DNA of 64,000 nt from Thermoplasmata archaeon (lineage in GTDB: Archaea; Thermoplasmatota; Thermoplasmata; RBG-16-68-12): contig DASWDU010000018.1 in NCBI GenBank assembly GCA_036395115.1, forward strand, positions 1-64,000, given 5' to 3'. Below the pieces are notes generated by a model. That model searched no databases. It was not told where the DNA came from and saw only the letters and a list, made by a program, of their open reading frames with translations. Each line of letters begins with the position of its first letter. Positions within the stretch are counted from its first letter, which is position 1. Both the position numbers and the translations under genes were made by a program. Of the stretch, positions 41,821-46,698 are shown in pieces.

Positions 41821-42731
41821 GGATCCGCGCGCGGCCGATTGCGCCCGGTCGGGCGACCGGCACCGCGCTCGTCCATCCGGAGCCGTTCTCGTTCGTCGGC
41901 GGGGTGGACCCGTCGACGGGGGAACTCCTCCATCCCACGCCATCGGCGTCGGGCGGTGCCCTCGCGGGACGCGTGTTCGCCTTCCCGCACGGAAAGGGGA
42001 GCACCGTCGGGTCCTACGTCCTCTACGGCCTCGGACGCCGCGGCGTCGGACCCGCGGCCATCGTCAATGCGCGCGCCGAAGCGATCGTCGCCGTAGGCGC
42101 GGTCCTCGCGGGGATCCCGATGGTCGACCGCGTGGACGTCGGCGGAATCCGGTCTGCGGATCGGGTGACCGTCGATGGGGATCGAGGCGCCGTCGACCTC
42201 CCCGATGTGCGCGCGCGACCCGTCGTCTCCGCGATCCTCCGGAACCGGGGGCGGATCCTCATCGTCCGGCGGAGCGAGGCGGTCGGGAGCTTCCGAGGTC
42301 GCTGGTCCGCCGTGTCCGGGTACATCGAGGGGCGAGAGGACCCCCGGGACCGCGCGGTCCGCGAGGTCCGGGAGGAGACCGGCCTGAGACGGCTCGTCCT
42401 CCGGGCGACGGGCCAGCCGGTATTTGCCCGGACGGACGCCACGGTTTACGTCGTCCATCCGTTCCTCTTCGACGTGGCGAGCCGCACGATCCGACTCGAT
42501 TGGGAGAACACCGATCACGCGTGGATCCGGCTCGAAGACCTCGGCCGATACGACACGGTCCCCCGACTCGCGGACGTCGTCGCGTCCGTCCTGCCCGCCG
42601 CCGCGTCCGTCCCGACGCCCCCATCGCCGCGCCCACGGGACGGGGTCAGGAGGACCCGTTCCCCGGGACGACCCGGTCGACCTCGCGCTCGAGCAGCGTC
42701 ATCTGCTGTGCATCGAAGGCGGACGGGTTGA
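41817..42731 (+). CDS. Phosphomevalonate dehydratase small subunit fused to a Nudix domain
   Basis: Residues 1-133 are the DUF126 small subunit with RVFAFPHGKGSTVGSYVLYG (Ser62 region, the known active-site loop) and the final RVTVDGDRGAVDL. Residues 136-260 are a full Nudix domain with box G168 to L190 (GYIEGRE, then REVREETGL), preceded by SAILRNRGRILIVRR. There is no stop or start between the parts, only a short linker. The last 45 residues are Arg/Pro-rich and run against the 3' end of ileS. Fusion suggests the hydrolase acts on a pathway metabolite such as isopentenyl diphosphate, but this is inference. Confidence 0.87.
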   Translation: MRIRARPIAPGRATGTALVHPEPFSFVGGVDPSTGELLHPTPSASGGALAGRVFAFPHGKGSTVGSYVLYGLGRRGVGPAAIVNARAEAIVAVGAVLAGIPMVDRVDVGGIRSADRVTVDGDRGAVDLPDVRARPVVSAILRNRGRILIVRRSEAVGSFRGRWSAVSGYIEGREDPRDRAVREVREETGLRRLVLRATGQPVFARTDATVYVVHPFLFDVASRTIRLDWENTDHAWIRLEDLGRYDTVPRLADVVASVLPAAASVPTPPSPRPRDGVRRTRSPGRPGRPRARAASSAVHRRRTG

Positions 42732-45700: not shown

Positions 45701-46698
45701 TGACCGGGCGCGGTGTGGACGAGGCCCGTGTGCTCCGCCTCGACGACCTCGGAGGCGACGACCCGGTGGGCCCAATCGCCCGTGACACCGGCCTGGTACG
45801 GGATTCCCTCGGCGAGTGGGTGTACGTACGCGCGACCAACGAGCTGAGCCCCGGTCGTCCTCTCGACGACGTCGTAGGAGGCGACGCCCCCGAGCGCCAT
45901 GACGGCTGGGACGGCGGCTTCCATGATCCACAGGTACTCCGTCTTGTCGCCCTCGCCGACCCGCACCTTCGCGTACGAGAACTGCGGATGGACCGCGATC
46001 GCGAGGTTCGCGGGCAGCGTCCACGGCGTCGTCGTCCAGATGAGCAGCGATTCCTCCGGTCGCTCCGCGAGCGGGAACTTCACGTAGATCGAGGGGTCCG
46101 TTTCGTCCGCGTATTCGACCTCCGCGTCCGCGAGGGCCGTCTCGTCCCGCGGACACCACTGGATTGATCGCAGGGCTTCGTACAGGAGGCCGTGCTCGTG
46201 GGCACGCTTCAGGGTCCACCAGGCGCCCTCGATGTACTCGTTGCGGATCGTCATGTAGGGCCGGTCCCAATCGAGCCAGACGCCGAGGGCTTGGAACTGC
46301 TCCGTCATTTTCGTTAGGAGTTCGAGGGAGAAGCTCCGGCACGTGTCGATGAACTTCGCGATGCCAAGCTCCTCGATCTCCTTCTTGTTCATAATCCCCA
46401 GGGTCTTCTCGACCTGGACCTCGATTGGGAGCCCGTGCATGTCGTAGCCCGGTTGGTCGCGGACGTGGAAGCCCCGCATCCGCCGGTAGCGGACGACGGC
46501 GTCTTTGATCGTCTTGTTCAGCACGTTGCCAAGGTGAATCGAGCCGGTCGTAAACGGCGGGCCGTCGCCGAAGTAGTAATCCTCACCGCCCGCACGCGCG
46601 GCGACCGTCTTCGAGTAGACCTTCGCGCGCGTCCAAAATTCCCGGACCTGACGCTCCAGCTCCGCTGGAGCGTACGACTTCTCCGCCTGCTTGATCAT
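42646..46698 (-). CDS. ileS: Isoleucyl-tRNA synthetase with C-terminal HhH, zinc-ribbon and DUF835 domains
   Basis: In the 1350 residues, 1-1050 are a complete archaeal-type IleRS: GSIHLGN (53-58) for HIGH, the editing domain (about 200-400), QMHKS (600-604) for KMSKS, zinc cysteines 400/403, 472/475 and 511/514, and an anticodon-binding part ending VTIGVTP. In one open frame then come a helix-hairpin-helix (about 1058-1115), two zinc ribbons (1124-1141 and 1152-1169) and a DUF835 domain (about 1200-1345). DUF835 occurs with PAS and kinase domains in archaeal signalling proteins. ATG 46698 is used, since TATA at 46785 excludes the ATG at 46770. A Met at 1056 might give a separate short product. 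Confidence 0.92.
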   Translation of the reverse strand: MIKQAEKSYAPAELERQVREFWTRAKVYSKTVAARAGGEDYYFGDGPPFTTGSIHLGNVLNKTIKDAVVRYRRMRGFHVRDQPGYDMHGLPIEVQVEKTLGIMNKKEIEELGIAKFIDTCRSFSLELLTKMTEQFQALGVWLDWDRPYMTIRNEYIEGAWWTLKRAHEHGLLYEALRSIQWCPRDETALADAEVEYADETDPSIYVKFPLAERPEESLLIWTTTPWTLPANLAIAVHPQFSYAKVRVGEGDKTEYLWIMEAAVPAVMALGGVASYDVVERTTGAQLVGRAYVHPLAEGIPYQAGVTGDWAHRVVASEVVEAEHTGLVHTAPGHGPEDFELGQRLGLPAFSPVDEHGRFTPEAGEYAGKYVKEADPIIINDLRSAHALFAEETLVHAYGHCWRCKTPILFRATVQWFLKVSDIKPKMVDEVQRVRWYPDWAGSARQLRWTEDLRDWCISRQRYWGVPLSIWRCPKCRHWVVVGSSAELREGQGYQEGMDLHRPGIDAVTLPCSECGGTMARVPDTVDVWFESGVSTWASLGYPAREDEFKRWWPADWIVEGPDQTRGWFASQLAAGVVAFDRAPYDSVLMHGWVNGPDGRQMHKSLGNYVEPSTVVDKFGVDALRLYMVLVNAPWDDITFQEEGVRTALRTLNILWNVLRFATTYMVLDRFDPFAPAMAVVEGHLRHEDRWLLSRLESVKATVDAEMATYNLHRAYRAVESFVLDDLSRWYVKLVRGRTWTEATDRDKLAAYRVLHESLGTVAALVAPVTPHIAEAMYQRLDGRKLSVHMVDWPTAIEGRRKAELEASMAIVQGLVEVVSKERQKGGRKLRWPLQLVAVKGPTPAAAAALDSLKGVFLELANAKELLVLKPTDEFPGMSLVAKPDPAAIGKAYKVLGPKIVKVLEARPAEELREALERGPYEVGVDGQIVTIGASMVRFEKQVPADVVVAPTPHGELYLHLRVTPELQAEAYAREIIRRVQQMRKELDLEVDDFIATVVKTSKDFAAVLAPQVAFMSRETRSRNFTFSDKDVGSEHVVEWNDVDGRSVTIGVTPLHMSEALREFTKVPGITSAKATALFDAGYKSVAALKAATRQELAAIEGLEPSDLDRIVAAFSTEEPGDVECPTCGATIPASARRCPRCGEPTTSDASPCPRCHAPIPPGSDACDACGFALAGTGSSTATGQAEAGASEPIAPSLKDPSSVLVREKTPREAYDLFRSALETGKRGLCITRAYPKRVRERFGDAAPTIIWLSNVGKERTVRPKDLEKLSLLVEEFLRGGNGVILIDGLEYLVTHNNFITVLRLLQAVRDRVAMNGAVLLLSVNPSAFDAQQMTLLEREVDRVVPGNGSS

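Follow-up and report, generated by a model that had tools for sequence, protein, structure and literature searches.

A described parallel to the protein considered here is GCN2, in which a HisRS-related domain reads uncharged tRNA (PMC4335047, PMC9437257). The DUF835 domain, labelled 'iKaiC', belongs to a family that occurs mainly in signalling proteins (PMC5847659). In the stretch of DNA that we analysed, 64,000 nucleotides from a Thermoplasmata archaeon and referred to below as the window, one gene encodes an isoleucyl-tRNA synthetase (IleRS) whose C-terminal tail ends in a DUF835 domain. No Gcn2-type sensor of uncharged tRNA is known from archaea, and DUF835 domains, though abundant, have no known function. 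Searches of the open-licence literature turned up no description of an IleRS fused to DUF835, nor of a pseudo-IleRS, in these archaea.

The gene, of the order IleRS-HhH-ZnR-ZnR-DUF835 and encoding 1350 residues, occupies positions 42646..46698 on the minus strand, as do all of the features listed here. Its stop lies at 42646-42648, its frame is open from 47001, and its ATG start is at 46698, at a conserved MIKQAEK. All Pfam matches of the protein exceed the curated cut-offs. The class I synthetase catalytic domain with its CP1 editing domain (residues 18-632, 44803..46647; PF00133 tRNA-synt_1, 1.6e-124) is followed by an anticodon-binding domain (residues 688-835, 44194..44637; PF08264 Anticodon_1, 2.5e-31) and by DUF5915, the C-terminal domain of the IleRS body (residues 877-1049, 43552..44070; PF19302, 1.2e-19), and the protein scores 925 bits against TIGR00392 ileS, for which the cut-off is 621. 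Motif alignment finds the HIGH, KMSKS and CP1 editing motifs all intact: the HIGH-type motif is HLGN (residues 55-58, 46525..46536), intact relatives having HxGT, HxGN or HxGQ; the KMSKS-type motif is QMHKS (residues 600-604, 44887..44901); and the editing site has both the Thr-rich TTTPWT (residues 222-227, 46018..46035) and GHGPED (residues 332-337, 45688..45705). The tail begins with a helix-hairpin-helix (HhH), HHH_5, which is the first tail domain in nearly all relatives (residues 1061-1114, 43357..43518; PF14520, 3.4e-10, 40.7 bits against a cut-off of 27). Two zinc ribbons follow, CPTC-x10-CPRC (residues 1124-1141, 43276..43329) and CPRC-x10-CDAC (residues 1152-1169, 43192..43245), which together give the DZR match PF12773 (residues 1124-1170, 1.8e-7, 31.7 bits against a cut-off of 27.3). 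Beyond a linker that differs in length among relatives (residues 1170-1200, 43099..43191; tail comparison), the protein closes with DUF835 (residues 1210-1339, 42682..43071; PF05763, 1.4e-34, 119 bits against a cut-off of 33.1). ORF, Pfam and TIGR00392 analysis thus confirm the initial annotation, which had read a single frame of 1350 codons holding a complete IleRS, an HhH, two zinc ribbons and a DUF835 domain; to this we add the minus-strand location of the gene and the low complexity of the linker between ribbons and DUF835.

No second IleRS was found in the window's genome, which is 98% complete, the other TIGR00392 match being an 805-residue ValRS-like protein that falls below the cut-off. 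As the sole IleRS of this genome, the window protein must therefore be the working enzyme, and the lack of any other IleRS implies that it charges tRNA-Ile with isoleucine. Its HxGN and MHKS variants recur in members of the family that have no other IleRS. Loss of the catalytic motifs, the mark of a regulatory pseudo-synthetase, is seen in relatives and not in the window protein itself.

The gene converges on an AcnX pair of the archaeal mevalonate route, made up of the large subunit (40657-41820, plus strand) and an adjoining swivel subunit that carries a fused NUDIX domain (41763-42731, plus strand); the convergent arrangement of this pair beside IleRS is conserved in several families. Directly upstream, at 46781-48523 on the minus strand, is a substrate-binding protein with PKD and Peripla_BP_6 (LivK-like) domains. 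We considered a link between IleRS and the LivK-like gene and rejected it, since the pairing occurs in just 3 loci, two of which are the window itself, and so is not a conserved arrangement.

The initial annotation had suggested that the tail might be a former neighbouring gene, joined to the synthetase by loss of a stop codon, and had named two separate genes in all relatives as a refuting observation. We find the opposite. An IleRS of this type is present in 21 of the 22 genomes of the window's GTDB family (the remaining genome, G021, matched only a ValRS-type protein), and wherever a contig of these genomes extends beyond the end of the IleRS, the same frame runs into DUF835. Five of the six families in the window's order have the fusion, the unfused exception being the family that we number f5. 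Across our sample of 200 genomes of the class Thermoplasmata, many of them incomplete MAGs, long frames of 1230-2929 residues with DUF835 at the extreme C-terminus are usual in most families, and an independent genome collection yielded 90 confirmed fused loci, some of them in Methanomassiliicoccus MAGs, in Methanomassiliicoccales and in complete chromosomes. Outside the class, none of 194 genomes spread across the phylum has an IleRS fusion, and the scan of the genome collection found it in Thermoplasmatota/Euryarchaeota alone, save for one apparently mis-binned contig labelled 'Terrabacteria ANGP1'. The chance that two adjacent genes of this one genome were joined through stop loss, a frameshift or mis-assembly is therefore as good as nil, given that dozens of independent assemblies, as well as complete chromosomes, show the same frame, and we rule this origin out: the fusion extends across the class and appears to be ancestral. 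What stands of the earlier reading is that the tail is a real and conserved part of the IleRS, and that its DUF835 end suggests signalling.

An internal start at Met1056, proposed in the same annotation as a source of a separate small HhH-ZnR-DUF835 protein, is highly improbable. An in-frame ATG is indeed present, and many relatives of the same order share the Met, but other fused families have Leu, Ile, Val, Phe, Trp or Thr there, and the codon is preceded by no clear ribosome-binding site.

To follow the history of the tail we used quick trees, which have SH-aLRT support only and contain long branches. When DUF835 domains of IleRSs are placed among paralogs from the same genomes, the IleRS-borne copies form nearly one clade, requiring 3 label changes against 22 with shuffled labels; the exceptions sit on long branches. 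The tree of the IleRS body needs 5 changes, and in it the unfused enzymes of f5, of f11 (4 of 5) and of genome G174 nest among fused ones. The simplest reading of these trees is one ancient fusion, with later loss of the tail in some lineages. In f5, most of f11 and G174, where a tail-less but catalytic enzyme is the sole IleRS, aminoacylation can dispense with the tail.

The near-constant parts of the tail are the HhH directly after DUF5915 and the DUF835 domain at the end, although a recognisable first HhH is missing in f10, f14 and f20. Besides these, a tail has 0-4 zinc ribbons and 0-3 extra HhHs; ribbons are missing in f8, f23, f26 and f14, and are thus accessory. Linkers reach hundreds of residues in f17, f21 and f25. 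The longest tail, of 1872 residues, belongs to a 2929-residue IleRS-derived frame in an f17 genome (G075, L121:501-9287, minus strand), in which repeated HhH-zinc ribbon units precede DUF835, along with stretches that by eye appear TPR-like.

The predicted structure of the DUF835 domain (AlphaFold, pLDDT 90.2) gave Foldseek matches to FlaH/ArlH, KaiC and PH0284, the top match being FlaH 4yds (E 1.9e-6, prob 1.0, TMq 0.63). A Walker A motif, GxxxxGK[ST], as would be needed for an active KaiC/ArlH ATPase, is absent from every tail scanned. As modelled, then, DUF835 has the RecA fold of the KaiC/ArlH type but lacks Walker A, in agreement with the 'iKaiC' label (PMC5847659). Most tailed lineages encode 5-33 DUF835 domains per genome, and f11, f22, f27 and G174 encode 0-2; the exceptions to this pattern are f5, which has lost the tail yet retains 6-7 DUF835 proteins, and a number of f15 genomes, which have hardly any DUF835 apart from that of the dead IleRS.

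Three further settings of the domain were observed. The sole DUF835 of f11 (L289, L290, L291) is in a receiver-like-DUF835 protein of ∼300 residues, encoded 7-11 kb from the tail-less IleRS. Two predicted membrane proteins of f14 (922 and 1036 residues; L271, L272) combine repeated 'ESGLPxGTxWSV'-like ectodomains with a C-terminal DUF835 near the IleRS type. Finally, a bacterial-type DnaA ATPase domain (PF00308, 8.8e-59) is fused to DUF835 in this archaeal genome, at G000:C32:6140-7825 (L006, L336), with homologs in 36 of the 37 genomes of the window's order; archaea normally rely on Orc1/Cdc6.

The evidence that bears most strongly on the function of the tail comes from relatives that the initial annotation had missed, namely tailed IleRSs that have lost their catalytic motifs, the activity of each copy being judged from motifs alone. 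Motif alignment shows loss of HIGH and/or KMSKS from the tailed IleRS in f9, f12, f17, f21, f25, f26 and f28; in most of f17, in f21 and in f26, KMSKS is gone but much of HIGH is left, and in genus g8 of f6 the motifs are partly degraded. Two families, f15 and f19, at first appeared tail-free, yet each encodes a further protein with HhH and DUF835, from which HIGH and/or KMSKS are likewise gone. That of f15 can be aligned with fused IleRSs over its full length (hhalign E 1.4e-81), and that of f19 from the anticodon-binding domain through to the C-terminus (hhalign E 1.3e-75); Pfam recognises no class I catalytic domain in either, and the AlphaFold model of the f19 copy has a pLDDT of 54, too low for use. 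At least two losses of catalysis are indicated by the C-terminal tree, in which f17, f21 and f25 nest among intact enzymes. The f6 genus seems to be undergoing a third such loss, and f9, f12, f15, f19, f26 and f28 may represent one loss or several.

Each degenerate lineage holds another, unfused IleRS, with HIGH and KMSKS intact wherever both are readable, several of these copies being contig-end fragments; no such second IleRS was found in fused-only lineages. Most second IleRSs resemble IleRS2 of known structure, as tested on the f12 copy. Those of f6/g8 (L328 G032:C27 and L329 G034:C10) have a GVHH variant of HIGH, known from mupirocin-hyper-resistant bacterial IleRS2 (PMC10485003), together with an MHRS variant of KMSKS, and the second IleRS of one f25 genome, G096, is of a different, HLGT type. 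A mirror case is provided by f8, where the fused copy is intact and the second copy is without KMSKS. Counted by family, catalytic loss goes with a second IleRS in 10/10 against 0/17 (Fisher p ∼1e-7), a figure that serves only to illustrate the pattern, since the families are not independent.

One conceivable use of the dead copies is as trans-editing factors that clear Val-tRNA-Ile, with the tail helping to find the tRNA. Parts of the editing site are kept in f15, in some f9 and in some f17 copies. Editing motifs are lost, however, in f12 and f28, the N-terminal half of the f19 protein, including CP1, cannot be aligned, and the second IleRSs carry editing motifs of their own; we judge this role quite unlikely on these grounds.

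Among the regions of the degenerate copies, DUF835 is usually the most strongly conserved. In the deep f12 set, the degenerate copies share 27% identity in the catalytic domain, 38% in the anticodon-binding domain, 44% in DUF5915, 50% in the HhH and 57% in DUF835, which is likewise ahead in f17 (82% against 66%) and f26 (98% against 86%). Among intact enzymes, f8 excepted, the catalytic domain is usually conserved at least as well as DUF835. The exceptions on the degenerate side are in f9, in which one pair has DUF835 (65%) below DUF5915 (85%), and two copies have lost DUF835 and kept their HhHs. The DUF835 of intact enzymes is under purifying selection (dN/dS 0.04-0.11); for the f26 pair, dN/dS is mostly saturated.

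These patterns bear on a rival account, that the tail is an aid to tRNA affinity and nothing else, the HhH and zinc ribbons holding the tRNA in the manner of other appended RNA-binding modules while DUF835 serves as a cap for structure or oligomerisation and does not signal. The HhH and ribbons do resemble nucleic-acid or ribosome-associated modules (with weak matches to eL32, bL32 and RadA), linker and ribbon number vary freely, and catalysis can dispense with the tail. Such an aid should not, however, outlast the aminoacylation motifs, as the tail does in ∼9 families, usually with DUF835 as the most conserved part of the protein, and the other members of the DUF835 family are found mainly in signalling proteins (PMC5847659). 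We regard this account as unlikely.

Alternatively, the dead copies may have neofunctionalised on their own, for instance as RNA-binding scaffolds, in which case the tail of the active window enzyme would do nothing comparable. The strong divergence of the f15 and f19 copies and the very long tails of some others, as in f17, would fit such a history, which we nonetheless consider unlikely, for three reasons. Active and dead proteins have the same tail order (HhH, usually a zinc ribbon, DUF835 last), and the strong purifying selection on DUF835 extends to the active enzymes. In addition, it is the dead copy of f19, not its canonical IleRS, that adjoins AcnX and the swivel protein, a place taken in f1, f5, f8 and f11 by the intact IleRS; the f19 dead copy is thus the positional ortholog of the active gene.

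Our conclusion is that the tailed IleRS very probably has a second, non-catalytic role, given that the tail has been lost where the enzyme is kept and the catalytic motifs have been lost where the tail is kept. The case for a second function is strongest in the motif-less relatives that retain the tail. We infer that this role is regulatory, that its input is tRNA-Ile or isoleucine and that its partner is a KaiC-family protein. On balance, and by a modest degree, we favour the view that the tailed IleRS is both a charging enzyme and a sensor of tRNA-Ile or isoleucine that signals through iKaiC, by an arm carried since early Thermoplasmata. Retention of the tRNA-binding half alongside a signalling-type domain suggests that the supply of tRNA-Ile or isoleucine is read and reported to the DUF835/KaiC network. 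We hypothesise that the IleRS body would charge tRNA-Ile, while the tail (HhH, zinc ribbons and Walker-A-less KaiC/ArlH-like domain) would confer the second role independently of aminoacylation; the tRNA-binding half, comprising the anticodon-binding domain, DUF5915 and the HhH and ribbons, would read the supply of tRNA-Ile or how far it is charged, and the iKaiC domain at the C-terminus would relay the signal by docking onto a partner from the KaiC/ArlH/DUF835 network of archaea. More tentatively, and with somewhat less confidence than doubt, Thermoplasmata may possess an archaeal counterpart of tRNA-based amino-acid sensing, with a signalling arm of KaiC type built into IleRS and its role kept in several lineages by a catalytically dead synthetase once charging had passed to another IleRS. 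Through the tailed synthetase and its motif-less relatives, a connection between tRNA charging and the KaiC-like signalling network of archaea becomes concrete and open to testing. Moreover, lineages that hold two IleRSs amount to naturally occurring separation-of-function mutants, in which the second role is open to study without killing translation.

Compared with known systems, the dead relatives resemble the regulatory synthetase paralogs, the HisRS-like domain of GCN2 and HisZ (PMC4335047, PMC9437257), in being synthetase bodies without catalytic motifs. They differ in deriving from IleRS rather than HisRS, in having an iKaiC domain as their putative output and in that regulation is here putative; the window member, furthermore, is still an intact enzyme, so that active and dead states occur within one family. 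With archaeal and IleRS2-type enzymes (T. thermophilus 1ile, P. megaterium IleRS2 8c8v) the window protein shares the catalytic, editing, anticodon-binding and C-terminal domains, but the HhH-ZnR-DUF835 tail that it carries is annotated on none of the solved IleRSs matched by sequence. Like the iKaiC/DUF835 domains (PF05763) of archaeal response regulators and kinases (PMC5847659), and in keeping with ArlH/FlaH and KaiC, the tail domain is over the Pfam cut-off and has a KaiC/ArlH-type fold, as predicted, with no Walker A; unlike the former, it is joined to an essential translation enzyme rather than to REC or PAS, and the IleRS-borne copies form a clade of their own with extra invariant residues, for example within RPKDLEKL. 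Lastly, the presence of two IleRS genes per cell recalls the coexistence of IleRS1 and IleRS2 in bacteria (PMC10485003), where both are working enzymes and mupirocin resistance is involved, whereas in these archaea the usual fate of the older copy is to become a pseudo-synthetase with a tail.
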